From the NCBI RefSeq assembly GCF_900109575.1, contig NZ_FOAF01000001.1:1459662-1523661 (forward strand): a DNA stretch of 64,000 nt, read 5' to 3'. The notes beneath the pieces are model-generated. The model did not search any database. It was not told the DNA's origin and saw only the letters and a list, made by a program, of their open reading frames with translations. Below, in pieces: positions 35,775 through 58,328 of the stretch; within the stretch, counting starts at the first letter, position 1; each line of letters begins with the position of its first letter. A program made the translations under genes and the position numbers. This stretch comes from Olivibacter domesticus. Its GTDB lineage: Bacteria > Bacteroidota > Bacteroidia > Sphingobacteriales > Sphingobacteriaceae.

Positions 35775-35785
35775 AATATAAAAAA

Positions 35786-38005: not shown

Positions 38006-38066
38006 AATAATTATTACAAGAAATTACTAGAGTAGAAATTGAAGTTTAATTTACAAAAAAACGATT

Positions 38067-38636: not shown

Positions 38637-38647
38637 TTTTATACATT

Positions 38648-40917: not shown

Positions 40918-41259
40918 AGTATATGTTTTTATTAGATTACATTATGTTTAGTCAAAGCTCACATTCCAATAACCCTACCGCCTTTAAAACGGCTATTGTA
41001 TTTTACATTTTTTTTAGCTGTATACTTGCATGGTACATCACCGGTAAACTTATTGTTGATTATTTTCGCAAAAGAAGCGTAGTTTTTAACATTGGCAAGC
41101 TTTTTTCTATGTCCTGTTTTAACTATAGTATACTTTCTTAATAAGTTCAACATCATTTTCTTTATTAGGCACTTAGCAGCATTAAGCCTGTTCCTCTCTC
41201 GTGGCATGGTTTTTCGATTTTTTCTAAAACAATTTCGCTAATACTCATTTTACACCTAT
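40918..41259. other. Divergent promoter region of the ADH and FAD-Rieske genes
   Basis: This 342-bp region has no supported gene. It holds a copy of the recurring 30-bp box (41091-41120), oriented toward the FAD-Rieske gene and ending 139 bp before its ATG. Confidence 0.55.
41091..41120 (+). promoter_or_regulatory. Recurring promoter-like box, copy 1
   Basis: ATTGGC, AAGC, TTTT, TTCT, ATGTCC, then TGTTTT. Its first part matches the copy at 54835 almost exactly (one mismatch over the 23 bases from TTGGC). The CTAAAT end of the best copies is not conserved here. It ends 139 bp before the FAD-Rieske gene. Confidence 0.55.
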
Positions 41260-42822
41260 ATGGCAACGACTCAAAGTTCAAGTTTTCATTTACGTGATGG
41301 CAATACACAAAGCCCATGGCAGATTAATCCTCTTAGTGAGGCGTTGGCTTCCAAAAATGACCCGCCAGATACCTCCCGTATCTACGACGCTATAATCATT
41401 GGAGCCGGGATAACAGGTATAACAACATCCTTATTGCTTCAAAAGACAGGTAAAAGGTGCCTACTAATTGATGGGCAACAGTTCGGTTTTGGTACAACCG
41501 GTGGTACCAGTGCACATTTGAATACGTTTTTTGACGCCACCTACCCAGAGATTGAACGTGATTTTGGCAAAGAGGCTGCAGCCCTCACTGCAAAGGCAGG
41601 CAAGGAAGTAATCGCTTTTATCGCAGCGCTTATAAAAGACTATCAGATAGATTGTGATTTTGATTATAAAGATGCCTATCTATTTTCCGAAACCGAAAAA
41701 GAAAGCAAACAATTAAGAGCAATTTTAGCGTGTTCGCAAAGAGCTGGGATCGCAGTGGAAGAAGCAAGCGAAAATGGGGTACCCATTCCGTACGATCAGG
41801 CCATTTTGTTTAAACAGCAAGGACAGTTTCATCCAATAAAATATACTAGTAAACTTTTGGAAGCATACTTGGAACTCGGCGGCGATTTAATGGAGAACAC
41901 CTTTATCATTAAAAATAGTTTCGATGGCAAATGCCATATAGCCGAAAGCGCTACAGCTATCTTTAAAGGCCACGCTATTGTTTATGCTACGCACATTCCT
42001 CCCGGTATTAACCAGTTTAACTTCCGTTGCGCCGCATATCGGAGTTATGTATTGGGTGTCAGATTAAAAGATGATAATTATCCATCTGCATTAATCTATG
42101 ATATGCAGGAGCCTTATCATTATTTTAGAACACATCATATTGACGGACAAGATTATCTTATTGTAGGAGGCGAAGACCATAAAACTGGCCATGGCGATCC
42201 TGAAGTAGCTTTTAAAAGATTAGAGGATTACGTACGGAGATATTATGCGATTGCTTCTGTAGATTACCGCTGGTCTGCTCAATATTATATACCTGTAGAC
42301 GGACTACCCTATATTGGCCAGTTTCCTAACAATGCTCCCGGTGTTTACATCGCTACCGGGTTCAATGGCAACGGAATGATTTTCGGGACACTATCTGCAA
42401 AAATTATAAGTGATTTAATTTTAAAGCATGAAAATTCCTATGGTTCACTTTTTAATCCGTCACGAATGAAACCTATTGCAGGGTTTTCTGAGTTTCTTAA
42501 GGAGAACACAGATGCAGCCTATCACTTTATAGCAGATCGGTTTACTACAAAAGAAATAGAAACTGCCCACGCAATTGCATCGGGTGAAGGGATGGTTGTA
42601 GACTATCAAGGACAGAAACTGGCACTATATAAAGACGAAACCGGCCATATCACCGCATTGAATCCGACCTGTACGCATGCAGGTTGCATTGTAACTTATA
42701 ATTCAGCAGAAAAGAGCTGGGATTGCCCATGCCATGGAGGGCGTTATGATTTGCAAGGCCATGTAATTACCGGACCACCGTTAAAAAATCTTGAAAAAAT
42801 CAGCCTTGAGAACGACGACTGA
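41260..42822 (+). CDS. FAD-dependent oxidoreductase with C-terminal Rieske domain
   Basis: A 520-residue fusion. The N-terminal FAD-binding domain of the DAO type has the dinucleotide loop IIGAGITGITTSLLL (about residues 46-60) and the later YIGQFPNNAPGVYIATGFNG. The C-terminal Rieske domain has CTHAGC and CPCHGGRYD (about residues 471-500). This architecture is known in bacteria, but substrates are poorly known. It is transcribed away from the zinc alcohol dehydrogenase and has a copy of the recurring box upstream, so it may belong to a stress regulon. Confidence 0.92.
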   Translation: MATTQSSSFHLRDGNTQSPWQINPLSEALASKNDPPDTSRIYDAIIIGAGITGITTSLLLQKTGKRCLLIDGQQFGFGTTGGTSAHLNTFFDATYPEIERDFGKEAAALTAKAGKEVIAFIAALIKDYQIDCDFDYKDAYLFSETEKESKQLRAILACSQRAGIAVEEASENGVPIPYDQAILFKQQGQFHPIKYTSKLLEAYLELGGDLMENTFIIKNSFDGKCHIAESATAIFKGHAIVYATHIPPGINQFNFRCAAYRSYVLGVRLKDDNYPSALIYDMQEPYHYFRTHHIDGQDYLIVGGEDHKTGHGDPEVAFKRLEDYVRRYYAIASVDYRWSAQYYIPVDGLPYIGQFPNNAPGVYIATGFNGNGMIFGTLSAKIISDLILKHENSYGSLFNPSRMKPIAGFSEFLKENTDAAYHFIADRFTTKEIETAHAIASGEGMVVDYQGQKLALYKDETGHITALNPTCTHAGCIVTYNSAEKSWDCPCHGGRYDLQGHVITGPPLKNLEKISLENDD

Positions 42823-42865
42823 TAGTTATCCATTTACATTGAAATATATATTGGCTTACATGATT

Positions 42866-43135
42866 TTAAATCCAAATATGCTCATCGCTTATTTTTTCGA
42901 TTTCCACCCGACCTTTCAATTTAGCGTCAACGGCATATAACACCTCTCCTTTCCACCTTTTGAAACGCATGATCTGTTTTCCCGTTTCTCCCTTAATCCC
43001 CTGAGCAAATCCTCGCAGGGAATGATCCACCCTTTCTCTCGTATCCTTTCCGCGTAGAGGCGTAAATAATACGGTAATAACCAGTCCAGTAATAAAGCCT
43101 CCAAAAAATGTAATTAGTTTGCTCGTATCGTTCAT
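42866..43135 (-). CDS. YtxH-domain small protein
   Basis: An 89-residue protein with one N-terminal membrane helix (FFGGFITGLVITVLF) followed directly by TPLRGKDTRERV, the typical YtxH pattern, and an amphipathic charged tail. YtxH-type proteins are general-stress-linked in other bacteria; their role is unknown. It lies downstream of another small membrane protein gene on the same strand, with a terminator-like hairpin between. Confidence 0.83.
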   Translation of the reverse strand: MNDTSKLITFFGGFITGLVITVLFTPLRGKDTRERVDHSLRGFAQGIKGETGKQIMRFKRWKGEVLYAVDAKLKGRVEIEKISDEHIWI

Positions 43136-43295
43136 TGTTTAAATAAATAAGTATTATCCGTTTATAAAACAGCATTTGACGTATACTGTTTGCTTTTCTG
43201 GCTCAACTTGCTGTAACTGTCTGTTTTTCTTTTCATTCATATTGCTAGTAACAATCGATTCATCTTCCGCTAGAGCAGCAACGCTGTATTGCAAA

Positions 43296-43318
43296 CCCAG
43301 CACGATCGAAGTGCTGGG
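43296..43318 (-). terminator. Hairpin between two minus-strand small genes
   Basis: CCCAGCAC and GTGCTGGG form a perfect 8-bp GC-rich stem with a 7-base loop, 24 bp past the stop of the small membrane protein gene. The T-run is better on the plus strand (CTTTT), so it may work in both directions. Confidence 0.6.
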
Positions 43319-43341
43319 CTTTTAGTGCCTCCATATTGAAT

Positions 43342-43575
43342 TTAGTCATGGCCTTGGGTTTTTACGATCTTATTATAGATACCCAGTAAAAGAAATGGTG
43401 CTGCCCATTGTCCAACAAATAGCGCTGTATGTTTACTCCCTGCGCATTTTAGTGCAAGCGATATCCCCATGGACGCTACTGCAGCTCCTAAAAAAACTAC
43501 CGATGGTACTTTACCTGTTACGTTTTCGATCATTTCAGTTTTGTGCCCTTCATTGGGCGATGTTAAATTGCTCAT
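43342..43575 (-). CDS. Small membrane protein, unknown function
   Basis: A 77-residue protein with two hydrophobic segments (about residues 28-44 and 51-66) after a polar start. There is a GAAVASMGISLALKCAG helix and a second one near FVGQWAAPFLLLGIYNKIV. I do not recognise a named family, though similar small proteins occur in Bacteroidota stress-gene clusters. A TTGGCA-type motif lies on its own strand about 190 bp upstream (43751-43766), but it does not fit the six-copy box well. Confidence 0.7.
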   Translation of the reverse strand: MSNLTSPNEGHKTEMIENVTGKVPSVVFLGAAVASMGISLALKCAGSKHTALFVGQWAAPFLLLGIYNKIVKTQGHD

Positions 43576-43945
43576 AATAAACTATTTTTATTTATAAATT
43601 AATTTATGGTGTTAACAGCGTTTCGTCGGTCCGTTTTATCATATTACTTATTTACCTTCAGAAATGCGGCCAACTTTAATAGGATAGGCCAAAATCCGCG
43701 CTGCATTTGTTTGTGATTTTTATTGTGCCTACAAATACCAAGTAAATGAGGGTCAAAAAGTGCCAATTCTAATAGGGCAATTAATATTCCATAAAGTATG
43801 GTCTGATTTTATGTGTGTGCTAAATTGTCTACTGCTTGTAGGATAAAGCGATGTTGATGTAAAGAAATGAAGACAGGCCCCAAGGAACACGCGTGTTAAC
43901 CATAGTTTTAATCACACAATTTTTCGTTATAGCTGTTTTAAAATA
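43576..43945. other. Divergent promoter region with a recurring box
   Basis: This 370-bp stretch separates the small membrane protein gene (minus) from the lipoprotein gene (plus). Apart from the box at 43797 it holds no supported gene. Confidence 0.55.
43797..43826 (+). promoter_or_regulatory. Recurring promoter-like box, copy 2
   Basis: TATGGT, CTGA, TTTT, ATGT, GTGTGC, TAAATT. It aligns without gaps to the copy at 44445, with 21 of 30 bases the same. It ends 119 bp before the lipoprotein ATG at 43946. Confidence 0.65.
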
Positions 43946-44164
43946 ATGAAACATAGAAATTTAAGCATGAAATTAGTTACAATATTTGCGGCCTTCGCGC
44001 TTGCAGGGTCACTCTACGGCTGTGGCTGTGATAGCCAGTCGCCAGACGATGTAGAAGAACAGTTTGACGCCGATACGATAGACGCGCCAAAAGAAGGTGA
44101 CTCAACACTTAGTGAAAAGATGTACCCGATGCAGACCGATAGTTTGCAGGACAGCTTAAAATAA
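43946..44164 (+). CDS. Small acidic lipoprotein
   Basis: A 72-residue predicted lipoprotein. The signal ends in the lipobox-like LYGC (residues 23-26), then a very acidic, Asp/Glu-rich tail. A second Met at residue 8 starts a shorter but still good signal. No family is recognised. It has a recurring box upstream and a structured RNA-like element directly downstream. The function is unknown; an envelope-stress role is only a guess from context. Confidence 0.72.
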   Translation: MKHRNLSMKLVTIFAAFALAGSLYGCGCDSQSPDDVEEQFDADTIDAPKEGDSTLSEKMYPMQTDSLQDSLK

Positions 44165-44180
44165 TAATTTGTTAAAATAT

Positions 44181-44236
44181 GGTAACCCCTTCCAAGTTAT
44201 GGGTATTGGAAGTTGGCAATTTGCCGTCGGGTTACC
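44181..44236 (+). terminator. Three-stem RNA-like structure after the lipoprotein gene
   Basis: An outer stem, GGTAACCC with GGGTTACC, encloses two hairpins: CTTCCAA with TTGGAAG (10-base loop) and GGCA with TGCC (3-base loop). AAGTTTT follows. It begins 17 bp after the lipoprotein stop, so it may be an elaborate terminator or a 3' UTR RNA element. Confidence 0.55.
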
Positions 44237-44444
44237 AAGTTTTATGAAGTCGTTTCTTTAATTATTTTGATATTTTTGCGTCTTCGTTCATCGTTAAGTG
44301 ATCTATAAATCCTTATTTACTATCTGTGCATACAAATTCCTTACCTAAGCATTTACATTCTAAAAACCGTAAACAAATTTACGTGGAAATGCATTATATA
44401 TAAATTTTTCAACCATTCCAGCTTAAATTTTGCTTTCATGATTA

Positions 44445-44474
44445 TTTGGCTCAATTTTAACTGTGTACTAAATT
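44445..44474 (+). promoter_or_regulatory. Recurring promoter-like box, copy 3 (best match)
   Basis: TTTGGC, TCAA, TTTT, AACT, GTGTAC, TAAATT. The TTGGC end and CTAAAT are 17 bp apart, which is the spacing of -35 and -10 boxes. It ends 146 bp before the ATG of the 61-residue gene at 44621. Confidence 0.65.
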
Positions 44475-44620
44475 TTATGAGCGCTGTACCCCTTTTTATT
44501 CTTGGCGTGAAATGATCTTTTCTTTAAAATATTGAACTCCACTTTTTTGAAATATTATAGTGATATATCTTCTCGTTTTAAACCTTTCTTCCTGTCACCT
44601 GTTATTCAATAAAAGGGAAT

Positions 44621-44806
44621 ATGGATTACATCACAATAAAAGATAATCAAGATTTTTACGAAGTAGTGCTAAAAACCAGTAAAGGTGAATTAGTGAAATT
44701 ATTGGTAAATAAAGAGGAGGATACTATACAAGTTGTTCGTGAGCACGACCAGTTGATGGAGGCATTACAGATCAATGAATCTTCACTGGAGATTATTATC
44801 AGATAG
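44621..44806 (+). CDS. Small protein, unknown function (61 residues)
   Basis: A 61-residue soluble, acidic protein with alternating short beta and helical patterns (VVLKTSKGELVKLLV, then EHDQLMEALQ). I do not recognise a family. It has a recurring box 146 bp upstream of its ATG. Its last 8 bp overlap the convergent gene at 44799. It is probably real because of its codon pattern and its own promoter-like box, but this is not proven. Confidence 0.6.
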   Translation: MDYITIKDNQDFYEVVLKTSKGELVKLLVNKEEDTIQVVREHDQLMEALQINESSLEIIIR

Positions 44807-45086
44807 AAAAGGCTTCCGGCGCATTTGGATTATTCTCCGGAAGTTTTTTGTTACTATTAGCGAAGTTGATACGCTTTTCTACCTCTTCTTTTACATCACC
44901 TGCATCTTGCCATTTAGCAAGATCCGCATATAAAAAGTCCATACTGTAGTGTATGTCATCCCGCTCCCAGCGAAGGCGCAGGTATTCTTCACTTTCCGTA
45001 ATCGAAATTGGTTGCTGATCGTCAAAACGATTTCGACATAGAGCACGAACCTCTTCCTTTGCTTGCTTTAAATTTGAATGTGTCAT
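44799..45086 (-). CDS. Small protein, unknown function (95 residues)
   Basis: A 95-residue soluble, strongly charged protein. The middle ITESEEYLRLRWERDDIHYS looks like an amphipathic helix, and the C-terminus is Asn/Pro-rich. There is no signal peptide or membrane helix and no recognised family. It is convergent with, and overlaps by 8 bp, the 61-residue gene. Confidence 0.6.
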   Translation of the reverse strand: MTHSNLKQAKEEVRALCRNRFDDQQPISITESEEYLRLRWERDDIHYSMDFLYADLAKWQDAGDVKEEVEKRINFANSNKKLPENNPNAPEAFSI

Positions 45087-45211
45087 ATGCGCTTCTCATA
45101 GGTATTTCCTTATAAAGACACAAGTATTAGTCCCATATTCAAGAAACAGAATAGGATGAGCCGAATATTACTTAGATAGCGTTATTTAAATAGATTATTC
45201 AGTAATATATT

Positions 45212-45241
45212 CTTGGCAACGTTTTATAGGTGTACTAAATA
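45212..45241 (+). promoter_or_regulatory. Recurring promoter-like box, copy 4
   Basis: CTTGGC, AACG, TTTT, ATAG, GTGTAC, TAAATA. It aligns without gaps to copies 2, 3 and 5. It ends 171 bp before the ATG of the carbamoyltransferase remnant, so it probably drove that lost gene and may now drive the SpoIIAA-like gene at 45577. Confidence 0.65.
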
Positions 45242-45412
45242 AAGCATAGTATTGTCTATATTTCTATAAGCAGATGTATCAATAACGTAGATATAACGCC
45301 ATTCATTAGCGGTTATATTCTGCCTCCGAAACTTCAGTAGTAAAATACATCGTGGCATTGAATATGCCTTCAATTCATAAAGATTTTCCTTTAATAATTT
45401 AATACGCAATTT

Positions 45413-45516
45413 ATGTACACATTAGGAATTAACGCTGTATTCATGATTCGGCAGCTTGTCTTATTAAAGACGGCAAATTATTAGCCGCTGCAGAAGACGA
45501 ACGTTTAGCAAATTAA
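45413..45516 (+). pseudogene. Frameshifted N-terminal fragment of a carbamoyltransferase
   Basis: The ATG frame starts MYTLGINAVF and then a one-base deletion shifts it. The next frame continues HDSAACLIKDGKLLAAAEDE and ends at a TAA. Joined, this is the typical N-terminus of NodU/CmcH-type carbamoyltransferases (LGIN..FHDSAACLI.DG...AAAEEER). About 35 of the several hundred expected residues remain. The rest of the gene is missing. Confidence 0.8.
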
Positions 45517-45576
45517 AAGAAAAGCAAACAGGCCTATAAAAGGGTTGTTAATAAGACACATCTATTATTGAAAATT

Positions 45577-46407
45577 ATGTTGACGCAATTAACAAAATTA
45601 CCAGCACACGTTTTTGCTGTAAAAGCAACCGATAAGGTTACAGGAGAAGAACTTAAAGATGTATTAATACCAGGTCTGCAACGTTTGGTAGATAAATATG
45701 GAGAGATTTACTATCTACTTGTATTAGACACAAAAGTGAAAAACTTCACAACAGGAGCCTGGCTTCAGGATTTGATAGCGGGGATAAAACATTTCAAAAA
45801 ATGGACACGTATTGCAGTGGTTACAGATGAGGCGAATGTAGAAAAGTTTACGAATATGTTCAATTATCTGGCACCTGGTAATGCAAAAGGGTTTAAGCAT
45901 GACCAATTAAAGCAGGCAATTAGCTGGGTAAGCCAAAGAACCAAAGCTGAAGGTAAAACTATTACCGGACTAGCGGCCGGCCTGGTCGGCGCTATTGCAT
46001 TAAATGTGGTACATGAAACCCTAAAAAGAAGAATGGCTCATGCGCCAAGAATTGATCAGTTAGGTAAAGAAGCAATAGCTAAGTCTACAGATAAATTAGC
46101 CAACTACAAGCCCAGTGAAAAGAACTTGTATGCAGCAAGTCTCGCTTCGGATCTTGTGAGTAATTCGTTGTTTTATAGTTTGATCCCCTCTACCGATAAA
46201 AATGTACTTTGGGCAAAAAGTATTGTATATGGATTAGGTGCGGGCCTAGGAGCTGTTATTTTACCTGCTAAATTTGGGTTGAATGATCGGGGCGTAACTA
46301 AAACAACACAAACAAAAGGACTGACGATTGCTTACTATCTCTTTGGGGCGCTTGTGACGGCCGCTAGCTTTTCTATCCTGAAAAAATTGTCGAATAAAAG
46401 CTATTAA
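45577..46407 (+). CDS. SpoIIAA/STAS-like protein with a C-terminal membrane region
   Basis: A 276-residue protein from the ATG at 45577 (a TTG three codons upstream is possible). The N-terminal part (about residues 1-120) matches the SpoIIAA-like STAS/CRAL-TRIO fold: FAVKATDKVTGEEL, YYLLVLDT and WTRIAVVTDEA. The C-terminal part has glycine-rich hydrophobic segments (TGLAAGLVGAIALNVVHETL, YGLGAGLGAVILPA and YYLFGALVTAASF), probably membrane helices. The fusion links a small binding fold to a membrane domain; its role is unknown. It follows a carbamoyltransferase remnant. Confidence 0.75.
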   Translation: MLTQLTKLPAHVFAVKATDKVTGEELKDVLIPGLQRLVDKYGEIYYLLVLDTKVKNFTTGAWLQDLIAGIKHFKKWTRIAVVTDEANVEKFTNMFNYLAPGNAKGFKHDQLKQAISWVSQRTKAEGKTITGLAAGLVGAIALNVVHETLKRRMAHAPRIDQLGKEAIAKSTDKLANYKPSEKNLYAASLASDLVSNSLFYSLIPSTDKNVLWAKSIVYGLGAGLGAVILPAKFGLNDRGVTKTTQTKGLTIAYYLFGALVTAASFSILKKLSNKSY

Positions 46408-46434
46408 TATCAGCTTGGTTACTTTTTACTTGCG

Positions 46435-47235
46435 TTAGTCATTTTTTTTATCTACGGGAGCCTGCGTCTCGCCCATCTTGTCGGTGATGGCACTGTCTGG
46501 TGTGATATTGCCCATCGCCACTTGCATTTTATTTTTAAAGCCTGATATGACCATATCTTTACCCGCCATCAGGGCATCATAACCATCCTTTGCCACTTCG
46601 GCAGGATCTGCCATTTCACCTTCCTGCACAATTTTGGAAGCCTGCATCTCCGCTTTGTTAAAGAAATCTGTATCTGTAGCCCCCGGTAAAAGCGAAGTAA
46701 TCGTCACGCCGGAACCCTTTACTTCACTACGCACTGCTTCGCTAAAAAAGTGCACAAATGCTTTCGTTCCATGATAAACCGCTTGATAAGGACCTGGAAT
46801 CTTTCCTGCGATAGAAGAAAGATTTAGAATCTTTCCTTCACCCTTCAACACCATATCTCTTAAGAACATCTTCGTTAATGCAATACATGCGGAAATATTC
46901 AATTGAACAATGTCAAGCTCCTTCTGTAAATCGGTTTCGATAAACTCGCCATATACCCCTTGCCCTGCATCATTCACTAAAATATTTACCGCAATATCCT
47001 GCAACCTGATTTCATCGTAAATTTCAAGAGGTGCCTGCCTGTCGAAAAGATCCTTCGAAATGGTAATAACGTCCACGCCATATCTGCTAAGCTCCGCTCC
47101 TACCTTTTCCAAATCATCCAGGCTTCTTGCTATCAATATTAAATTATGGCCATCTTCGGCAAATAGCTTCGCAAGTTCGTATCCAATACCACTTGTGGCG
47201 CCCGTTATCAAGGTATAATTTTTTGATGTTTCCAT
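46435..47235 (-). CDS. SDR-family oxidoreductase (DltE-like)
   Basis: A 266-residue classical SDR. The cofactor loop is TGATSGIG, the structural motif is NDAGQG, Ser lies in NLSSIAG, and the catalytic pair is YHGTK. The extended C-terminus (about residues 225-266) is rich in Met and charged residues and carries no domain I recognise. It ends 28 bp from the convergent SpoIIAA-like gene. The substrate is unknown. Confidence 0.9.
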   Translation of the reverse strand: METSKNYTLITGATSGIGYELAKLFAEDGHNLILIARSLDDLEKVGAELSRYGVDVITISKDLFDRQAPLEIYDEIRLQDIAVNILVNDAGQGVYGEFIETDLQKELDIVQLNISACIALTKMFLRDMVLKGEGKILNLSSIAGKIPGPYQAVYHGTKAFVHFFSEAVRSEVKGSGVTITSLLPGATDTDFFNKAEMQASKIVQEGEMADPAEVAKDGYDALMAGKDMVISGFKNKMQVAMGNITPDSAITDKMGETQAPVDKKND

Positions 47236-47377
47236 GGGTTCTATAATTTATTTGTTATTATCCTTTCAACTATCCTACCCAAATAGCCCATTAAAATAAT
47301 TACAGAAAATTTTGGTGTGGAAGAGCATAAAACTGTGTTTTTTCTAAAAAAAGTACGTCATGCAACGGGATGGAAAT

Positions 47378-47407
47378 TTTGGCCCAGTTTTAATGGTGTC
47401 CTAAATC
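47378..47407 (+). promoter_or_regulatory. Recurring promoter-like box, copy 5 (orphan)
   Basis: TTTGGC, CCAG, TTTT, AATG, GTGTCC, TAAATC. It matches copy 3 at 23 of 30 bases. It points rightward, but the next genes downstream are on the minus strand, so no plus-strand gene is visible within 3 kb. Confidence 0.6.
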
Positions 47408-47521
47408 CTATTTAGCTTTGTATAGGTGGTTACGATTCATTTGTTTCTACTAGGCGGAGTGACCGACGTAAAATAGTAGGGTTACGGCGGCTATTGGATG
47501 GAAGAAATAAAAGCTAGACCC

Positions 47522-47884
47522 TTATGCACTCAAATGAAATTCTATCTGCTTTAATAAATCCGTTAGATCAAATGGCTTATTTATAAAATGCTGTGCGTTC
47601 ACTTCGTTCAGTGTTGCCCGTGAGTGGGATACAGCAGACATCAAGATCACGGGTATGTGACTATTAGAAGGGTTGGCTTTTATAGTCCGACAAACCTCCA
47701 GGCCGGTTCCGTCAGGTAACATAATATCAAGAAGAAATAAATCTGGCAGTTCGAACGGTAATGCGTCATTGAATTCAACGACCCTTGCATATGTTTTGAC
47801 CTCATAGCCAGATTCTGAGAGAAAGTATGCAATTATTTCTCTGATGTCATCATCATCTTCTAGGATAAATATGCACTTCTTCAT
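47522..47884 (-). CDS. Single-domain response regulator (receiver only)
   Basis: A 120-residue CheY-like receiver. The acidic pocket EDDDD is near residue 9-13, the phospho-acceptor Asp is in LLDIMLPDGTG, the switch Ser is in LMSAVS, and the Lys is in NKPFD. It has no output domain. It may serve the PAS histidine kinase encoded 1 kb away on the same strand, but a gene lies between them. Confidence 0.92.
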   Translation of the reverse strand: MKKCIFILEDDDDIREIIAYFLSESGYEVKTYARVVEFNDALPFELPDLFLLDIMLPDGTGLEVCRTIKANPSNSHIPVILMSAVSHSRATLNEVNAQHFINKPFDLTDLLKQIEFHLSA

Positions 47885-48014
47885 AACTATAAATTGTTTT
47901 ATATCAAATTATCTTATAATCCAATATACGATAAATATACATAAGAGGTTTGCTTTCAACGTTGATACCGAGCCATAGCCTTCAATGAAAGACAAAATTC
48001 GCACCGGCGGCGTC

Positions 48015-48776
48015 TTAAATAAGTTGAAAGGAGGCTCTCAGTTTTATTTCCACAACGTCACATCTTTTTGGTTGCATCAATGCATAATAAATACTTGCTG
48101 CTATATCTTCTGCCTTTAATACCGCTATCTTTTCAACGTTTTCCATCTGCTCAATAATTGGTAACTCTTCGATATCACTTCCCACCGCATCGGACTCAAT
48201 AAAGGTAACTTTTATCCCTTTCGTATTGATCTCCTTCCCTAGCGCCAAAGAAAATCCCTCAATGCCCGATTTAGTCGCTACAAGAACAGCGCTACTTCGT
48301 TCTTTTTCAGTCATAGCGCCAATATTGACGATATGGCCACTGCCTTTGGCAGCCATTCGTTTAACGGCCTCATGGGCATAGGCCATGTAGACAAATAAGT
48401 TGGTATTTAACAGGTATTGCCATTCGTCATAATCCTCTTCTATAATAGTGTTATAGGGTAAACCCGCATTATTCACTAAGATGTCAATAGGGCCTAAAAT
48501 GCGGTCTACTTCTTCGAATACACTTTTAATATCAGCATCTTCGGCAGCATCGGCCAATATGCCGTATATCGTTCCATCAGGAAATTTCATGCTGATTTGA
48601 TTTAACGCATCGTCGAGTTCAGGCAGCTGTCTACCAAAAATCATTACTGTTGCCTTATTCTCCACTAATAATGCTGCCGTTGCACGCCCAATTTCTGTGG
48701 TACCTTCCGTAACTAAAACAGCCTTGCCCGCGAGCGTTGTTAAATCTGAATACATCATACGTAAATTACTTAGCAT
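48015..48776 (-). CDS. Degenerate SDR-fold protein (probable pseudoenzyme)
   Basis: A 253-residue protein with the overall SDR layout (NNAG kept at IDILVNNAG). Key motifs are lost: the cofactor loop TGxxxGxG reads TEGTTEIG, and the catalytic YxxxK reads LVATK, with Leu for Tyr. The usual active-site Ser region reads NIGAMTE. The frame is intact for its full length. Either it is a structural or regulatory SDR relative, or it is decaying. Three ATGs near the start (48776, 48758, 48755) make the start uncertain. Confidence 0.82.
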   Translation of the reverse strand: MLSNLRMMYSDLTTLAGKAVLVTEGTTEIGRATAALLVENKATVMIFGRQLPELDDALNQISMKFPDGTIYGILADAAEDADIKSVFEEVDRILGPIDILVNNAGLPYNTIIEEDYDEWQYLLNTNLFVYMAYAHEAVKRMAAKGSGHIVNIGAMTEKERSSAVLVATKSGIEGFSLALGKEINTKGIKVTFIESDAVGSDIEELPIIEQMENVEKIAVLKAEDIAASIYYALMQPKRCDVVEIKLRASFQLI

Positions 48777-48936
48777 TTTATTTCAGACCGAGCAATTTCC
48801 ACGCCCCTTTCTAGTTACCTAATATTTTAATATTAGTTCAAAAAAAAGATGTATAAAAAATAATGTTGACAGCATTTCAACATTTCTCTAATTAGGGCAA
48901 TCTGATAGCAGTCTGTATCTCAAAGCGAGACACAGC

Positions 48937-50109
48937 TTATAGCACTTTTGGGATGCTAAAATAAAACGAACATCCAATGTCGTCTTCACATGTTAACCAC
49001 ATGCGTCCTCCATGGCGTTTTATGATCTCACACGAAACGTATAGACCAACCCCCATTCCAGAAGTATGATTTTCATGTTCAGGAACCCGGAAGAACCGGG
49101 TAAATATTTTTTTATGGTATTTAACCGGAATGCCTTTCCCCCTGTCTTTCACCATCACAATAAAGGAAGAAGAATTTTCTTTTAAGACGACTGTAATCTT
49201 GCTTTTTTGAGGCGAATACTTGATGGAATTGGTTAATAGATTAATGATAACCTGCTCGATGCGAATTCTGTCGGCTGTTACCAAGGTTTCCGAACAGCAG
49301 TTTTCATAGATGATTTCATGTGAATTGAAAATCATGTAGATGTTATGAATACATTCGGATAAAAGTTTATCCAAGTTAAAGAATGTTGGTTTAATCAGTA
49401 ATTTACCATTTTCCAGCTTAGATACGTCCAAAAGTTCCCCTACTAAATCATAGAGCTTGTCAATCTGCTGCATGGCTTTCTTTTTCATGTATTTACGATG
49501 CTCTTCATCCTTTTTTAAATCCATGCTCTGCATATACCATTTTAAAACGGTTAAAGGTGTTTTCAATTCATGACTGGCGGTTATCAAAAAGTCATCCTTG
49601 AATTTATTGAGTGCTTCCAAGCGGTTATTATAGATTTCTAACTGCTGATTTAACTGTACCTGTAGCGTAATATCACGTACTATTTTGGAAGCGCCAATGA
49701 TTTCGCCCTGACTATTCTTTAGCGGAGATATGGTTAAAGAAACAGGAATTTCCGTACCATTTGCATGTACTCTAACTGTTTCGAAGTGATGAACATGTTC
49801 CCCCCTGCTAATTTTCTCGACCATACGAAGTTGTTCTTCTAATCGAGCGGGTGGAACAAGCACCTGAATAGGCCGTCCCAACATGTCCTGTTCTTTATAA
49901 CCGAACATTTTTTCGGCTGCTTTATTCCAACTTAGCACACGGCCATCTAAAGTTTTACTGATAATAGCATCATCCGAGGAATCTACAATGGCTGATAAAG
50001 TAGCTCTTCTTATTTCTTCCTGCTCGTTGTCTTCCCTCATCCTAATATCGATGGTATCAGCAGGTTCATCCTGTCCATATTTTTCTAACCGTTTGGCATC
50101 TTTTTCCAT
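48937..50109 (-). CDS. Cytoplasmic PAS-domain sensor histidine kinase
   Basis: A 390-residue kinase without membrane helices. A PAS domain (about residues 35-155) includes DGRVLSWNKAAEKMFGY and the PAC-like IIGASKIVRDIT. A coiled-coil linker leads to HisKA with phospho-acceptor His180 in ASHELKTPLTVLKW. The ATPase domain has the N-box RIEQVIINLLTNSIKYS and the G-boxes DRGKGIP and GMGVGLYVS. The signal it senses is unknown. Confidence 0.94.
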   Translation of the reverse strand: MEKDAKRLEKYGQDEPADTIDIRMREDNEQEEIRRATLSAIVDSSDDAIISKTLDGRVLSWNKAAEKMFGYKEQDMLGRPIQVLVPPARLEEQLRMVEKISRGEHVHHFETVRVHANGTEIPVSLTISPLKNSQGEIIGASKIVRDITLQVQLNQQLEIYNNRLEALNKFKDDFLITASHELKTPLTVLKWYMQSMDLKKDEEHRKYMKKKAMQQIDKLYDLVGELLDVSKLENGKLLIKPTFFNLDKLLSECIHNIYMIFNSHEIIYENCCSETLVTADRIRIEQVIINLLTNSIKYSPQKSKITVVLKENSSSFIVMVKDRGKGIPVKYHKKIFTRFFRVPEHENHTSGMGVGLYVSCEIIKRHGGRMWLTCEDDIGCSFYFSIPKVL

Positions 50110-50332
50110 GTTTTTTTCAGCGTTAAACTAAATTTTGCTTACTAATTTTCCAACATTTCGTGTTAAAAAATGTTTGTGTATGGATAAAATTGTGAATAAG
50201 TAAAAAAACCACTCAAGATACTCGTTTAAACAGCCTTAGGCTGGTATCTGGCCTACCTTAAAACTAATTTTTTTAAATAAACGAGCTAAATTGAGCATAA
50301 TTTGAGAAAAAGAGAATAAATGAGAAATGTAA

Positions 50333-50545
50333 TTACTCATTACTATCTTTAGATTCATTATCATTTTGCCAGTCTTCCGTATTCTTGGGCAGGTCGTTGA
50401 GTTGGTCTTGCTGAGAATCTATACCACCTTCATAGGAAAGATCGCGGTCTTTCCGTTCCCCCTTATCTTCAGTTTTTTGCGCCTCCTTTTTTTTAAATGG
50501 TTTATCTCGCAGCGGAGATAAGCGCCTTTCTTTGCGTATAGCCAT
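50333..50545 (-). CDS. Small charged protein, unknown function (70 residues)
   Basis: A 70-residue highly hydrophilic protein (Lys/Glu/Asp rich; KKEAQKTEDKGERKDRD), probably disordered. It has no recognised family. It is divergent from the response-regulator gene at 50699. It could be a small stress or nucleic-acid-associated protein, but nothing in the sequence decides this. Confidence 0.55.
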   Translation of the reverse strand: MAIRKERRLSPLRDKPFKKKEAQKTEDKGERKDRDLSYEGGIDSQQDQLNDLPKNTEDWQNDNESKDSNE

Positions 50546-50698
50546 GTCTTTATAAGTATTTCAAATTCGAAAAATAACTAAATTGTACGAACACAAATCG
50601 TTCCAATTCCTGCTATCGCATTGCTTCATAAACTCCTCTTGAAAGTGAACAATTACGCTTTATTGCTGTTAGCTTATGTAAAATAGCGATTTTATCAT

Positions 50699-51349
50699 AT
50701 GATCAATATTATTTTGGTTGATGACCATTATATTGTAAGACAGGGTGTACGAACACTTTTGGAAACAGAATCTGATTTAACCATAATCGGCGAAACAGAT
50801 CAGCAAAGCGAGTTAATTCAACTACTTGAAAGTGATCAACCGATTGATGTGATTATGATGGATATCACAATGCCCGGAGTGGATGGAATTACCCTAACTA
50901 CAGCGATCAAAAGTGCACGCCCCCAGCTGCATATCATTATATTATCGATGATGGATCATGTAAAGTACGTAACGCAGGCTTTCGAGGCAGGGGCAGATGC
51001 TTACCTCGTTAAAAACGTTAGTCGGGACGAGCTCTTATTTGCCATCAAACATGTAGCGGAGGGTAACCAATACATCTGTTCAGAAATCAGCATGAAGCTA
51101 CTTTCGCAAGCTACTAACACTTATAAGCAACCACTTGCGGTGGAGGTCCTTGATCTGCATATCAATAACAGAGAAATGGAAGTGCTCGCCTTAACAGCCG
51201 ATGGCTTCACCAATCAGGAAATTGCCGAACGACTATTTACCAGTAAACGTACAGTTGAAGGTTACCGACAGAGCCTCATTGAAAAAACGGGTGTACGTAA
51301 TTCTGCAGCGCTGGTTAAATTCGCTTTCCAAAACGGTTTATTAACTTAA
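50699..51349 (+). CDS. LuxR/NarL-type response regulator
   Basis: A 216-residue response regulator. The receiver has the acidic pair Asp8/Asp9, phospho-acceptor Asp55 in MMDITMPGVDG, switch Ser83 and Lys105. The C-terminal LuxR-type HTH (about residues 155-216) has NREMEVLALTADGFTNQEIA and SKRTVEGYRQSLIEKTG. No sensor kinase is adjacent on this strand. The next gene encodes a degenerate relative. Confidence 0.94.
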   Translation: MINIILVDDHYIVRQGVRTLLETESDLTIIGETDQQSELIQLLESDQPIDVIMMDITMPGVDGITLTTAIKSARPQLHIIILSMMDHVKYVTQAFEAGADAYLVKNVSRDELLFAIKHVAEGNQYICSEISMKLLSQATNTYKQPLAVEVLDLHINNREMEVLALTADGFTNQEIAERLFTSKRTVEGYRQSLIEKTGVRNSAALVKFAFQNGLLT

Positions 51350-51521
51350 TGTTTTCCGTAACAGCTAAGGATCTTACGTATTAAAATTGCGTATTTACCG
51401 AACCCTCAAAACAGTATATCTACTGCTTTCGTATTTTTCTCGATAACTACCTTTGTTATTGTCAGATCGTTACTACCGTAACAAGCAGGTAATTAATCCA
51501 ATACATTATAACACATATAAT

Positions 51522-52163
51522 ATGAAAACCAAATTTGTAATTGCTGACAATAACCCCATCCGTCGAGATGGTATCCGTGCCATCTTAGAACAGGAAAATT
51601 TTGAGGTAACCTATACACAAAGCTGCCTGGAATCTTTGGAAGAACACTTAGGAGCAGCAGATATTGTTATTTGGGGTGCTGATGCGCAATCTCCCATCAA
51701 CAGTAATGTGATACGAACACTTCGGGATATTGCGCCCGACATTAAAGTGATGGTATTAGATAGCGATAATGGCTTATCCCCCGCCATAAAAGCTATTGGT
51801 GCAGGGGCTAATGGCTATATCACCCAAGGTGCTCAACGAGAAGAATTTCTTTTCGGTATTAACTATGTGTTGAAGGGTAAGAACTACATTGATCCTACAT
51901 TAACGATACGCCTCTTTAATAAGCTTACGGATTTTGAAGATCATCTCACAACACTCAATACAAATTTTGAACTATCTGACAGGGAGAACGAAATTCTGGA
52001 TCTGATGGTTTGTGGATATGCCAATAAAGAAATTGCCTATAAGTTATTTACAACCAAGCGCAATATTGAGAACCTACGGCAAAACCTGATTGTTAAAACG
52101 GGGGCAAAAGATAATTTAAGCTTAATTCTTTATAGATTACATAAAGAGTTTATAAGGGATTAG
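51522..52163 (+). CDS. NarL-type regulator with a degenerate receiver (atypical response regulator)
   Basis: A 213-residue protein from the ATG at 51522. The LuxR-type HTH (about residues 150-213) is intact: DRENEILDLMVCGYANKEIA and TKRNIENLRQNLIVKTG. The receiver has lost its chemistry: the acceptor Asp is Gly52, the Lys is Gln102, the switch Ser/Thr is Asp80, and only Asp9 of the acidic pair remains. It is therefore probably not controlled by phosphorylation. It follows a normal paralogue by 172 bp. Confidence 0.9.
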   Translation: MKTKFVIADNNPIRRDGIRAILEQENFEVTYTQSCLESLEEHLGAADIVIWGADAQSPINSNVIRTLRDIAPDIKVMVLDSDNGLSPAIKAIGAGANGYITQGAQREEFLFGINYVLKGKNYIDPTLTIRLFNKLTDFEDHLTTLNTNFELSDRENEILDLMVCGYANKEIAYKLFTTKRNIENLRQNLIVKTGAKDNLSLILYRLHKEFIRD

Positions 52164-52218
52164 CTAAAAATTTCCTGTAACATCTATCATCTATATATAA
52201 TAAATTAAATTCTTATTT

Positions 52219-52719
52219 ATGAAAAACCACCATGATCAAAGCATCGTTTTGAAAAAACTCTGCCTAACTGATGCGGAAGAATTCTTCCATTTGCACAGGC
52301 AGCCTGCCGTCTTTGGAACGTATATGCAGGAACTTAACATGAACGAAGAGGAAAAGCCTTTGGATTTCACGAAAAGACTTCTTTGGCTAAGCAAGGGAAT
52401 TTACTCCATTCGATTAACAGACAAACCCGAATTAATCATCGGCTCCGCACTCATTTATAAAGGAGGGAGCGAAAAGAATGAATTTTATTTTGGAGGTACC
52501 TTGCTACCGAATTACCATGGCAAAGGTATTCTATTGAAAGCTTTTGACCAAATTATTGAGCTTGCTAAATACTGTTATGGCATACCAGAAGTAAAGGTAT
52601 TTCTTAATGTTGTAAGCAAACAGGCAAATAGCACCATGGATAAATTAGGTTTCGTTAAGCTTTCCAAACAGAACGATCTCCTATATTATAAAAGCCTCTG
52701 GAAACACAGAATTGCATAG
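52219..52719 (+). CDS. GNAT-family N-acetyltransferase
   Basis: A 166-residue GNAT (RimJ/RimL-type) acetyltransferase. It shows an N-terminal VLKKLCLTDAEEFFHLHRQP start and a substrate-loop region. The acetyl-CoA segment LLPNYHGKGILLKAFDQII and the VSKQANSTMDKLGFVKL stretch are typical of the family. It may modify small amines or protein N-termini; the substrate is unknown. Confidence 0.88.
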   Translation: MKNHHDQSIVLKKLCLTDAEEFFHLHRQPAVFGTYMQELNMNEEEKPLDFTKRLLWLSKGIYSIRLTDKPELIIGSALIYKGGSEKNEFYFGGTLLPNYHGKGILLKAFDQIIELAKYCYGIPEVKVFLNVVSKQANSTMDKLGFVKLSKQNDLLYYKSLWKHRIA

Positions 52720-52796
52720 TTTAAACGAGCAAAGCTCTTAAGCCTGCGCGTATAACACGCTGACAGTTTAACTGTTTCTGCCATCTCCATCCACAT

Positions 52797-52970
52797 ATGT
52801 TAAAGAGAAACAGAAAAATAGCAGTATTTGCGGGCGTTCTTTTGTTTATAGGTTTCATGTATATCCGGCTGGCTTACATAACCATAAGCCAGGAGATCAG
52901 TGTTTATATGATTGGGATGGGTTTCCTCTTAATAGCTGTGGCAATAAGCCTTTTCATTCTTAAAATTTAA
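52797..52970 (+). CDS. Small membrane protein, 57 residues
   Basis: An intact 57-codon frame from ATG 52797 to TAA 52968-52970. It encodes a basic N-terminus (MLKRNRK) and two hydrophobic helices (about residues 8-22 and 36-56), so it is a small two-pass membrane protein. No family is recognised. A strong hairpin begins 4 bp after the stop codon, which supports a real transcription unit. Confidence 0.62.
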   Translation: MLKRNRKIAVFAGVLLFIGFMYIRLAYITISQEISVYMIGMGFLLIAVAISLFILKI

Positions 52971-52973
52971 AAA

Positions 52974-53008
52974 GTCGCCATAAAAGTTTTTCAAACTTTT
53001 ATGGCGAC
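52974..53008 (+). terminator. Perfect 16-bp hairpin after the 57-residue gene
   Basis: GTCGCCATAAAAGTTT and AAACTTTTATGGCGAC pair perfectly around a TTC loop. The position just after a stop codon suggests a terminator, but no clear T-run follows, so it may also stabilise a 3' end. Confidence 0.65.
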
Positions 53009-53034
53009 CAGCAGTTCTTAATAAAAAACCTATT

Positions 53035-53700
53035 ATGACAAAAAATAAAAAGACCAGCTTTTTATATAGAAATAGTCTTTCTATTGTATTTTTAGTTTTC
53101 TTTTTCGGCGCCTTACTTGCCCAAGCTTATTTTGGATGGAAAGAGCATAACCAAGAAATAGCTGAGTTTGGTGCTCCGCCATTAGGCTTATATGCTTACC
53201 TCAAAAGCGGTCATTTTATTTCAGCAACTTTTGAAAATTTTCAGAGTGAGTTTTTACAAATGGCGATGTATGTGATATTAACCGTATTTTTAAGGCAAAT
53301 AGGCTCAGCTGAATCAAAAGGTATTGATACGGAAGAGGACGTAGATAGAGAGCCGATGCCCGGGCCCCATGCTCCTGCACCAGTAAATAAAGGTGGATGG
53401 CGTTTAGCCCTCTATAAACACTCGTTATCAATCGCTTTTATTATACTTTTTATATTGAGCTGGCTAGGTCACTTGTACGGAAGCTTTAAAGACTATAACG
53501 TTGAACAACAGTTGAAACACGAACAAGTACTTGCGATAAGTGAATTTTTAAAAGAACCGATCTTTTGGTTTGAAACGTTTCAAAATTGGCAAAGCGAATT
53601 TTTATCGGTTGCTTCTATTGTGATTCTCACTATCTTTTTAAGGCAAAAAGGATCGCCCGAGTCGAAGCCGGTAGACACCCCACACCTGGAAAACGGATAG
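53035..53700 (+). CDS. DUF6766-like membrane protein with internal duplication
   Basis: A 221-residue membrane protein made of two similar halves: residues about 8-95 and 125-215. Each has NSLSIVFLVFF- or HSLSIAFIILF-type helices, a KEHN or KDYN turn, then FENFQSEFL or FQNWQSEFL and a VILTVFLRQ or VILTIFLRQ helix. A Pro-rich linker joins them. It fits the DUF6766 family; its function is unknown. Confidence 0.8.
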   Translation: MTKNKKTSFLYRNSLSIVFLVFFFGALLAQAYFGWKEHNQEIAEFGAPPLGLYAYLKSGHFISATFENFQSEFLQMAMYVILTVFLRQIGSAESKGIDTEEDVDREPMPGPHAPAPVNKGGWRLALYKHSLSIAFIILFILSWLGHLYGSFKDYNVEQQLKHEQVLAISEFLKEPIFWFETFQNWQSEFLSVASIVILTIFLRQKGSPESKPVDTPHLENG

Positions 53701-53766
53701 GTGATTGCGATCCCTTGGCAGGAAGACAATGGATCAATAAAATACTAATGATTAAAAATTTCAATC

Positions 53767-54000
53767 ATGAAAAACGAACAAGAAATTCTGGAGGTAACAA
53801 ACATCCAGTATTCGAAAAAAGAATTGGCCTACGGTGCGTTGGAGCTCAACATAAATGGCCATATTGACAATGAATATTATGAGACCACTATTGTTATTCA
53901 ATGTCCATTAGATGAAAATTCAGAAAATTTCAACAACTTATTAAAGGATGCTTTGGTGAAAGCGCGTGCGCGAACATCGCGATTAAAAGAGGGGTCCTAA
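53767..54000 (+). CDS. Small conserved-looking protein, unknown function (77 residues)
   Basis: A 77-residue soluble protein with beta-rich segments (ELNINGHIDNEYYETTIVIQCP) and a C-terminal amphipathic helix (FNNLLKDALVKARARTSRLKE). No family is recognised. It lies 66 bp after the DUF6766-like gene on the same strand and ends 32 bp before the shared terminator element with the convergent DUF892 gene. Confidence 0.62.
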   Translation: MKNEQEILEVTNIQYSKKELAYGALELNINGHIDNEYYETTIVIQCPLDENSENFNNLLKDALVKARARTSRLKEGS

Positions 54001-54040
54001 ATAAACAAGGTGTCAAAACCTAAGCTATCCGGCAAAAAAA

Positions 54041-54071
54041 AGCCCTGATCTGCAAGGAGCAGACCAAGGCT
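54041..54071 (-). terminator. Rho-independent terminator of the DUF892 gene
   Basis: Read on the minus strand, AGCC, TCTGC, a 5-base loop, GCAGA and GGGCT form a stem with an internal bulge, followed by a T-run of at least seven. It begins 20 bp after the DUF892 gene stop, so it ends that transcript. Confidence 0.75.
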
Positions 54072-54090
54072 ACACAAACTAAATAAACAA

Positions 54091-54609
54091 CTATTGCGCT
54101 ACATTAGCTTCCGACATAGCAATCTCTGTAAGTTTTACATCCGTCTCTTTCTCTTCATTCAATGTCGTGGTTAATATCTCTTCGGCTTCCGCATGTTCCA
54201 TTAACTTAGCGTAGGTTACTAAGCAGCCATAACTAGCAATTTCGTAATGTTCTACTTTTTGGGCAGCGGAAATAAGCGCTGCATCTAAAGCTTCACTACC
54301 GTCAAACTCTTCTATAATTTCTTCTGCTTCATTCAACAAGCCTTCCATTGCCTTGCATTTCTTACCCCTTGCTGTTAAGCCAATTGATTCAAAGACTTTC
54401 TTTAGACGTTCTGCGTGTTCTTCTGTTTGGGCAAGGTGTTCTTCGAAAGCTGTTTTTAACATCTCATTAGTAGCTTTCCCAGCCATTTTCTTCAATCCCT
54501 TTAGCAGCTGTTTTTCAGCTCCTAAAATATCTCTTAGCTCGTCTACAAATAATTCATGTAAATGCGCGTTCGGCATGTTGTCGTTGCTGTTTTTTTTTGT
54601 GTTTGCCAT
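54091..54609 (-). CDS. DUF892 (YciE/YciF-like) ferritin-like protein
   Basis: A 172-residue four-helix protein of the DUF892/YciF family: LHELFVDELRDILGAEKQLLKGL at the start, then EEHLAQTEEHAERLKKVF, VEHYEIASYGCLVTYA and ETDVKLTEIA. Glu/His spacing suggests a di-iron site. Relatives are induced by osmotic or general stress; function unproven. A good terminator follows. There is no recurring box in the right orientation upstream. Confidence 0.9.
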   Translation of the reverse strand: MANTKKNSNDNMPNAHLHELFVDELRDILGAEKQLLKGLKKMAGKATNEMLKTAFEEHLAQTEEHAERLKKVFESIGLTARGKKCKAMEGLLNEAEEIIEEFDGSEALDAALISAAQKVEHYEIASYGCLVTYAKLMEHAEAEEILTTTLNEEKETDVKLTEIAMSEANVAQ

Positions 54610-54982
54610 GATTTTTATTTTTAATTAGTGTTCAATAATTATTAGCTAGTCGATTGTTATGAAACCATCATAAGCAATCTGTATGACTGTTTGCAGTATC
54701 TGCTGCTTACGTTATTAATACATGTTCTGTGCCTGATTACTGATTATCAGCTACGGTATGGCAATTTGTACCCTAAATAAGATTAATAAGCGTCTATTTC
54801 CAGTTAAATAAATTTTTAAAGCAATATGGATGCTTTTGGCAAGATTTTTTCTATGTCCGTTTTTATATATAGCAGGTTAGTCTTTTAGGTGCACTATAGT
54901 TTTATGTCAAGAAAAAAAACGCGTTTCGCGCTGTATAAACGCTTGGCATGATATTGTGTCGATATAACCTAAACACGCTATT
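54610..54982. other. Divergent promoter region of DUF892 and SPW-repeat genes
   Basis: This 373-bp stretch holds promoters for both genes. On the plus strand it carries a box copy (54835-54864). A shortened look-alike (TATGGCAATTTG then CCTAAATAA) lies near 54758. No gene is supported. Confidence 0.55.
54835..54864 (+). promoter_or_regulatory. Recurring promoter-like box, copy 6
   Basis: TTTGGC, AAGA, TTTT, TTCT, ATGTCC, GTTTTT. From TTGGC to TCC it equals copy 1 except for one base, so these two form a sub-type. It ends 118 bp before the SPW-repeat gene ATG at 54983. Confidence 0.55.
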
Positions 54983-55381
54983 ATGTTAGTTAAACTTCTT
55001 CCACGGACGCTCCATGCACTTCTAGATTACATGGCGGCTTTATTGCTATTAATTGCTCCATGGGTGTTTCATTTTAACCACGAACGCCCGGCTATTGCCT
55101 TGAGTATACTTTTTGGCGTTACGATCTTGGTGATGTCTCTTCTCACGAACTATGAAGGTGGAATACGAAAAACCATCCCTATGGATGTCCATTTGTATGC
55201 GGATGTATTTGGCGGTGCTTTCTTAGCACTTTCGCCATGGCTTCTATTTTTTTCTGAGACGACATACGTTTTTCACCTAAGTATGGGCTTGGGTTTAGTA
55301 TTGTCGGGTTTACTCACCAAGCGAGAATCGCAACGAATCTATATGCCGAAACCTGGTGATCGACATATATATCACGGCTAA
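54983..55381 (+). CDS. SPW-repeat membrane protein
   Basis: A 132-residue membrane protein with four hydrophobic segments. Two SPW-type repeats are visible: LLIAPWVFHF near residue 22-31 and LALSPWLLFF near 81-90. The tail is short and charged. The family's role is unknown, though it is common next to stress genes. A recurring box and further AT-rich promoter-like sequence lie upstream. Confidence 0.85.
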   Translation: MLVKLLPRTLHALLDYMAALLLLIAPWVFHFNHERPAIALSILFGVTILVMSLLTNYEGGIRKTIPMDVHLYADVFGGAFLALSPWLLFFSETTYVFHLSMGLGLVLSGLLTKRESQRIYMPKPGDRHIYHG

Positions 55382-55583
55382 AACCAAAATAAAGTTGCCT
55401 GATGCCTAATTATTTGAAATATGCAGCGAGATTCTTGATCCATATCGTTGATGTTGATCAAAAATGTAATTACAACAAAGCAGATTTAATATTTGGAACA
55501 AAACAAAAAATTGTTTTTATCATAAAGCGTTACCAAAGCGGACGCGATTTTTCACTAAGTATTATTAACAAAAATTTAAAACA

Positions 55584-58191: not shown

Positions 58192-58328
58192 TCAAATTGC
58201 TGATATTGCCTCTTTTTTTCGTGTCTTTTCTACAAAAAAAATGTGCGTTCACAACATTTTTGAAATATAGCTGTTAATTTACAGAAAAAAAGGAGGCGGC
58301 TACGTAAATAGTTGCCATTTAAGTATAG

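Follow-up and report, generated by a model that had tools for sequence, protein, structure and literature searches.

A conserved 27-bp box upstream of stress-type genes in Olivibacter, with a LuxR-type regulator pair as its candidate reader

A 64-kb stretch of the Olivibacter domesticus genome (hereafter the window; the genome is G000) was analysed for a short sequence, here called the box, that recurs between its genes. The box comprises 27 positions with the consensus TTGGC-n4-TTTT-n4-RTGTnCTAAA. An earlier note on the window had reported six plus-strand copies that align without gaps, and all six were confirmed:

41092..41118, plus strand: box copy 1, 5′ of the FAD-Rieske oxidoreductase gene
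43798..43824, plus strand: box copy 2, left end diverged, 5′ of a 72-aa (amino acid) lipoprotein-like gene
44446..44472, plus strand: box copy 3, 5′ of a 61-aa gene
45213..45239, plus strand: box copy 4, 5′ of a carbamoyltransferase remnant, with orthologous promoters in two relatives
47379..47405, plus strand: box copy 5, facing the 3′ end of a minus-strand receiver gene
54836..54862, plus strand: box copy 6, between a divergent DUF892 gene and a sense SPW-repeat gene

The pattern TTGGCN4TTTTN4RTGTNC, with up to two mismatches, had nine matches in the window against 2.06 expected, a number reached by none of 100 shuffles. Five of the nine are exact and each is a listed copy, the copy at 43798 carries two mismatches and the remaining three are at chance level. 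Allowing three mismatches, a 28-mer ending in CTAAAT matched the four middle copies (0.06 expected); copies 1 and 6, two of the six, lack TAAAT. The distance between TTGGC and CTAAAT is 17 bp, as had been noted. Between the end of the 30-mer and five start codons we counted 118–171 bases (119–172 as start minus end), close to the 119–173 bp given before. Copy 5 has no sense open reading frame (ORF) of at least 25 aa within 320 bp.

The earlier note had found no copies outside 41–55 kb, which holds for the window and not for the genome. The genome-wide motif search that it proposed returned one further strong copy in 6.78 Mb (G000:C10:1150989), approximately 350 kb from the first window copy and also adjoining a DUF892 gene. 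With three mismatches allowed the long pattern gave 20 matches against 16 for its reversed form, and therefore weak matches elsewhere in the genome are background. Searched with one mismatch allowed, 60 relatives gave 14 matches to the pattern (13 in Olivibacter) against one to its reversed form, and a second pattern, derived from copies 1 and 6, matched nine times (eight in Olivibacter), again against one. Some sites, for example G004:C90:146613, match both patterns, so the two groups of copies form one family. A common pattern yielded 29 matches against 7 reversed in five Olivibacter genomes (G000–G004).

A matrix search of 373 kb, in regions chosen for holding matches, found 30 sites scoring at least 12 and none in reversed sequence. 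One of these 30 (L073:12788, score 12.1) is absent from the set of 29 sites that score at least 18, and three further Olivibacter sites (L162:2827, L163:3620, L164:13566) stand outside every count of 29. Both the matrix and the profile below were trained on sites found by pattern and are not independent of the pattern searches for those sites; seven of the 29 are new. Equal frequency of the motif inside genes would have spoken against a regulatory element, and 28 of the 29 sites lie outside ORFs of at least 100 aa, the other overlapping a 114-aa ORF (the box regions having been picked for matches). At E<1e-3 the 29-site profile matched 7 times in G000, 11 in G001, 3 in G003 and 9 in G004, and not at all in the congener G002 (best 0.63). 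These four, all Olivibacter, are the only genomes with such a match among 201 of the family, a subset of a larger group; in the other 197, no match reaches this threshold. Matches with E of 0.0015–0.01 in 21 of the 197 exceed what a calibrated E-value predicts, and were taken as noise given that none reached 1e-3 and that the calibration is rough. Box-bearing genomes hold from 3 to about 12 copies. We regard it as almost certain that the box is a real regulon element.

At 22 of the 29 sites, a sense ORF of at least 58 aa follows within 400 bp; a further site has a 57-aa gene behind it, a relative of which sits at another box. A small number of the short ORFs may not be real genes. The families represented are FAD-Rieske oxidoreductase, SPW repeat, carbamoyltransferase, Mn catalase, DUF2383, DUF1264, glucose/sorbosone dehydrogenase, LD-carboxypeptidase and small proteins without a Pfam family. 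We label these families stress-type, taking them to be of general-stress kinds from what is known of the families. The genes beside the window copies are:

41260..42822, plus strand: FAD-dependent oxidoreductase with Rieske domain (PF01266, PF00355), putative target
43946..44164, plus strand: 72-aa lipoprotein-like gene, no Pfam family, putative target
44621..44806, plus strand: 61-aa gene, no Pfam family, putative target
45413..45516, plus strand: carbamoyltransferase remnant, putative former target
45568..46407, plus strand: SpoIIAA-like domain protein gene with a long C-terminal part, 3′ of the carbamoyltransferase remnant and inside the stress cluster
54091..54609, minus strand: DUF892 gene, divergent from box copy 6
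54983..55381, plus strand: SPW-repeat protein gene, putative target

Homologues of the 72-aa gene adjoin boxes in G001 (L074) and G003 (L084), but divergently. The carbamoyltransferase remnant, already recognised as such in the earlier note, is real: it is frame-shifted, with MYTLGINA.F and HDSAACLIKDGKLLAAAEDERLA read in different frames, and intact genes stand behind boxes in two relatives. The window gene has decayed, yet its box and the downstream element described below persist. Comparison with upstream regions of orthologues, also suggested in that note, covered the promoters of carbamoyltransferase (three species), Mn catalase (two) and a small membrane protein (two). In all of these the box is among the best-kept blocks and outlasts the flanks, which have mostly diverged. 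A GCATA...TGT block is kept 3′ of the box in the carbamoyltransferase promoters and an ATTT.GTGT block in those of the small membrane protein. Taken together, conservation in four species, a mostly intergenic position and placement before stress-type genes indicate that the box is a cis element of an Olivibacter stress regulon, a conclusion drawn from sequence comparison.

For a logo we aligned 23 of 32 candidate sites, chosen by the box alone. Nine were dropped by eye (five from G003, one from G001, two from G002 and the G000 site at 550k), two of which, G003 5198k and G001 C4, appear to represent a single coding stretch. Columns fixed by the search pattern inflate the logo; those from 28 onward are free of this bias. 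The interior TTTT and TGTnC are conserved as strongly as the ends of the box, in part because the pattern fixed them, and TTTT is invariant in all 29 sites. The best dyad within the box pairs 40% of positions. Conservation is scant 5′ of position 0 or beyond 51, and does not end with the 30-bp repeat that had been delimited before: a further, weaker element, ATA-n5-GT, lies at a fixed distance, at positions 34–43 (A34 in 17 of 23 sites, T35 in 15, A36 in 15, G42 in 13, T43 in 18). Here matching to TAnnTTTG peaks, at offset 35 among 142 tested (mean 3.04 of 6 against 1.83, z = 4.2). The peak remains in 19 non-redundant sites, after removal of four orthologous duplicates (z = 4.3), and in the seven sites of O. 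domesticus itself (z = 2.7). Four instances in the window are as follows:

41126..41133, plus strand: weak −7-like position TAGTATAC, 3 of 6
45247..45254, plus strand: −7-like element TAGTATTG, box positions 35–42, partly kept in the carbamoyltransferase promoters of relatives
47413..47420, plus strand: −7-like element TAGCTTTG, box positions 35–42, the sole exact TAnnTTTG of the 23 sites
54870..54877, plus strand: weak −7-like position TAGCAGGT, 2 of 6

The −7 box of Flavobacterium sigma-A promoters is TAnnTTTG and spans −12 to −5 (PMC9723704). The box promoters would resemble such Bacteroidota housekeeping promoters in their weakly TAnnTTTG-like element at a fixed place, and differ in the degeneracy of this match and in having their −33 region occupied by the box. 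With the Flavobacterium spacing, transcription would start at box position 47, and the box would span roughly −46 to −20. As the element lies 7 positions past the box, CTAAAT is probably not a −10.

A second short element, TGGCA, was noticed after the fact between boxes and start codons:

41202..41206, plus strand: proximal TGGCA between box copy 1 and the start codon
45353..45357, plus strand: proximal TGGCA between box copy 4 and the start codon, kept in two relatives
54944..54948, plus strand: proximal TGGCA between box copy 6 and the start codon

It occurs in 15 of 31 box-to-start stretches, with 17 occurrences in sense orientation, 1 antisense and 1 reversed. In 22 non-redundant stretches there are 11 sense, 1 antisense and no reversed occurrences, and 11 was reached by none of 2000 single-base shuffles. 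The density is 3.23 per kb, against 0.96 for a set of 176 ordinary upstream regions at these loci, which includes some linked to boxes. Of 12 gene-bearing stretches having TGGCA, 10 carry the nearest full copy 14–62 nucleotides 5′ of the start codon, and a second block with TGGCA, nearer the start codon, is kept in the carbamoyltransferase and small-membrane-protein promoters. A Gibbs search for the proximal motif gave an information of 10.8 against 8.6–9.3 in six shuffled sets, a difference that overstates the motif, because orthologues were included and shuffling breaks them. Helical phasing between box and TGGCA was striking by eye and is not claimed (Rayleigh p = 0.43 at 10.5 bp and 0.017 at 10.2 bp; the best period scanned was 14.1). 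The proximal TGGCA may serve the same regulator as a second half-site, or it may be a core promoter.

Among the genes between box copies 5 and 6 are two adjacent regulators and a kinase:

48937..50109, minus strand: PAS histidine kinase adjoining the LuxR pair, possible input
50699..51349, plus strand: LuxR1, LuxR/NarL-type response regulator with canonical receiver, candidate regulator
51522..52163, plus strand: LuxR2, LuxR/NarL-type regulator with degenerate receiver, candidate partner

Both regulators carry a GerE helix-turn-helix. The LuxR2 receiver scores 30.0 bits against a Pfam cut-off of 30.2, and in all four orthologues its acceptor Asp is replaced by G and the conserved Lys by Q or E. 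At E<1e-50, LuxR2 was found in exactly the four box-bearing genomes of the 201 (the same four of the 60). The three orthologues are 60–68% identical to it, and the best proteins in other genomes 31–37%. LuxR1 is 72–73% identical in the three box-bearing congeners and 33% at best in the box-less G002; elsewhere in the 60 genomes identity is at most 52% among the matches listed. In the window the two genes sit within the box cluster; in the congeners the distance to the closest box is 3.5 kb (G001), 4.5 kb (G004) and 5.5 kb (G003). Between species, the recognition-helix region of LuxR1 is 90–100% identical and its receiver 70–72%; the corresponding values for LuxR2 are 80–85% and 52–59%. Further LuxR2-like regulators were observed in these genomes. 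One in G003 (L084:8776-9411) is 43% identical to LuxR2, has lost the acceptor Asp and kept the Lys, and lies about 1 kb from a box. Two others at 33–35% identity are G001:C3:447205-447807, with the closest of three boxes about 14 kb away, and G004:C86:80683-81291.

The best-supported mechanism, to which we give slightly under an even chance, is that the LuxR1/LuxR2 pair reads the box at housekeeping-sigma promoters. LuxR1 would be phosphorylated by a kinase, for example the neighbouring PAS kinase, and would bind the box jointly with the pseudo-receiver protein LuxR2. The joint site would be mostly non-palindromic and about two helical turns long, and the pair would act on it as RcsB/RcsA and BldM/WhiI do on theirs. 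With the element at positions 34–43 as the −7 box, the box would cover the expected −33 element, and the bound pair would recruit RNA polymerase to stress promoters with a poor −33. The earlier suggestion of a regulon under a dedicated sigma factor or an activator is borne out as to the regulon, with the four species and the stress-type genes behind it, and of its two options the activator is favoured, with this response-regulator pair as the candidate.

Several observations weigh against this mechanism. The −7-like match is weak, averaging 3.04 of 6, and exact in 1 of 23 sites, and the proximal TGGCA gives an alternative place for the start site. Within 400 bp of seven of the 29 sites no sense ORF reaches 58 aa (the 57-aa gene stands at one of these). 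Of nine full-length DUF892 genes in the genus, six have an upstream box that points away from them. Two of these six loci have a small ORF between box and DUF892 gene; divergent arrangements occur at window 54091-54609, L086, L073/L080 and L074/L079, some without a sense gene. Where a box faces away from DUF892, it may work bidirectionally. Six intergenic stretches were searched for another box directed at DUF892, and their best scores were all negative. No box scoring at least 12 was found before the LuxR pair in the loci examined. Moreover, the co-occurrence of box and LuxR2 amounts to effectively one lineage, and DUF892, the sole target looked for in the box-less G002, is present there only as a fragment, so that targets, box and regulator may have been lost jointly, in one evolutionary event. 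The regulators whose distribution was compared with that of the box were LuxR1 and LuxR2.

LuxR1-like regulators (41–52% identity, similar recognition helices) also occur in other genera with no box nearby (18 loci, 15 genomes). LuxR1 alone therefore cannot explain the box, which points to LuxR2 or the pair. A diverged box near these 18 loci was sought and discarded: the best real score fell below the best reversed-control score, and half-boxes were not in excess. Within about 10 kb, homologues of stress-type genes from the window (SDR, DUF892, SPW or DUF6766) occur at seven of the loci and homologues of the window kinases at 12. Such neighbourhoods would suit a family engaged in stress signalling, although genes for SDR proteins and kinases are frequent in any context.

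Four alternative explanations were considered. A dedicated alternative sigma factor, extracytoplasmic function (ECF) or group 2, would read TTGGC as −35 and CTAAAT (or TGTnC) as −10, in line with the 17-bp spacing and with the sense ORFs 3′ of 22 of 29 sites. Each Olivibacter genome has 39–71 sigma-70 region-2 matches, so an unplaced one could serve. However, such a promoter would have an unconserved spacer between its two elements, and here TTTT and TGTnC hardly vary (in part because the search pattern fixed them); moreover, TAAAT is absent from copies 1 and 6, and a further element follows at 34–43; the −35/−10 assignment of the earlier note is for these reasons not favoured. ECF promoters have a spacing of roughly 16 bp, and that between TTGGC and TGTnC is 13 bp. 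Among those listed of the 273 sigma-70 region-2 matches in total, none falls in the window or the box regions examined, though linkage of a sigma gene to its boxes is not obligatory. We consider this reading improbable. Much the same holds for the proposal, to our minds rather unlikely, that the box is an upstream activating site for another regulator with the core promoter at the proximal TGGCA. The strand bias of TGGCA in the non-redundant stretches, its nearness to start codons and its conservation in two promoter sets agree with this, and shorter leaders would result. Set against these are the post hoc way in which it was spotted, its absence from 16 of 31 stretches (TGGC is missing in 7) and the box phasing, which lacks clear support. 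On visual inspection, hardly any copy has the −12 C after n6-TTG, which would make it a poor sigma-54 promoter too.

That the box itself is a sigma-54 (−24/−12) promoter was rejected and seems to us barely conceivable: TTGGCA does resemble a −24 element, and GG is present in 23 of 23 sites, but the G of the −12 GC, expected 12 bp from the GG (column 15), is present in none of the 23 aligned sites, and not merely missing from most copies as had been noted. A dispersed repeat or RNA element without a promoter role would account for the several sites that lack a sense gene. This too is very improbable, since conservation is scant outside positions 0 to 51, orthologous promoters retain the box whilst most flanks diverge, and an Rfam scan of 40900-55500 found no family at the gathering threshold. 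A small-RNA explanation of the gene-less sites was likewise dropped, a hairpin with T-run being found at one of seven such sites and hairpin scans of three giving nothing clear. At L080:10405-10472 and L077:7518-7554 (the latter by eye and not by the scan) a hairpin and then a T-run follow shortly after gene-less boxes; these are possible small RNAs.

Two other gene runs in the window were observed. At 57823-63887 a receiver protein, a phytochrome-type sensor (PAS-GAF-PHY) and a 1350-aa CheB-CheR-PAS histidine kinase stand in a row, which suggests an input of light or redox signals next to the stress cluster. The run at 33533-39178, comprising a SLAC1-type channel, a molybdopterin oxidoreductase and 4Fe-4S and Rieske proteins, looks like a respiratory oxidoreductase operon.

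Similar targets, namely Mn catalase, DUF892/DUF2383 and small membrane proteins, belong to the general stress regulons of SigB in Bacillus and EcfG/PhyR in Alphaproteobacteria. The Olivibacter loci differ in having no sigma/anti-sigma switch near the boxes among the matches listed, and the candidate is a two-component pair. Also comparable are the response-regulator heterodimers RcsB/RcsA and BldM/WhiI; unlike theirs, the Olivibacter genes are adjacent. Both systems combine a LuxR/NarL-type regulator with an auxiliary one at a non-palindromic pair site (PMC4125116). The BldM/WhiI site described there is 16 bp long (PMC4125116), compared with the box of about 27 bp, whose end elements lie about two turns apart and to which the LuxR pair would bind.

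More broadly, the LuxR1/LuxR2 reading could be widened to a general stress regulon without a dedicated sigma factor, in which a hetero-oligomer would form on an asymmetric 27-bp box that replaces the −33 element of Bacteroidota housekeeping promoters. Its canonical partner would come from family-wide regulators, and the pseudo-receiver protein would be a lineage-specific addition that fixes the box. We offer this extended picture as a speculative one that is somewhat unlikely to hold in full. A search of the open-licence literature, at the level of listings, returned no description of this box or regulon, and no account of how Bacteroidota coordinate their general stress response. With a sharp 27-bp box, named targets and a named candidate pair, the question of stress coordination in Bacteroidota becomes directly testable. 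If the pair does read the box, response-regulator pairing for promoter choice would extend beyond Enterobacteria and Streptomyces.

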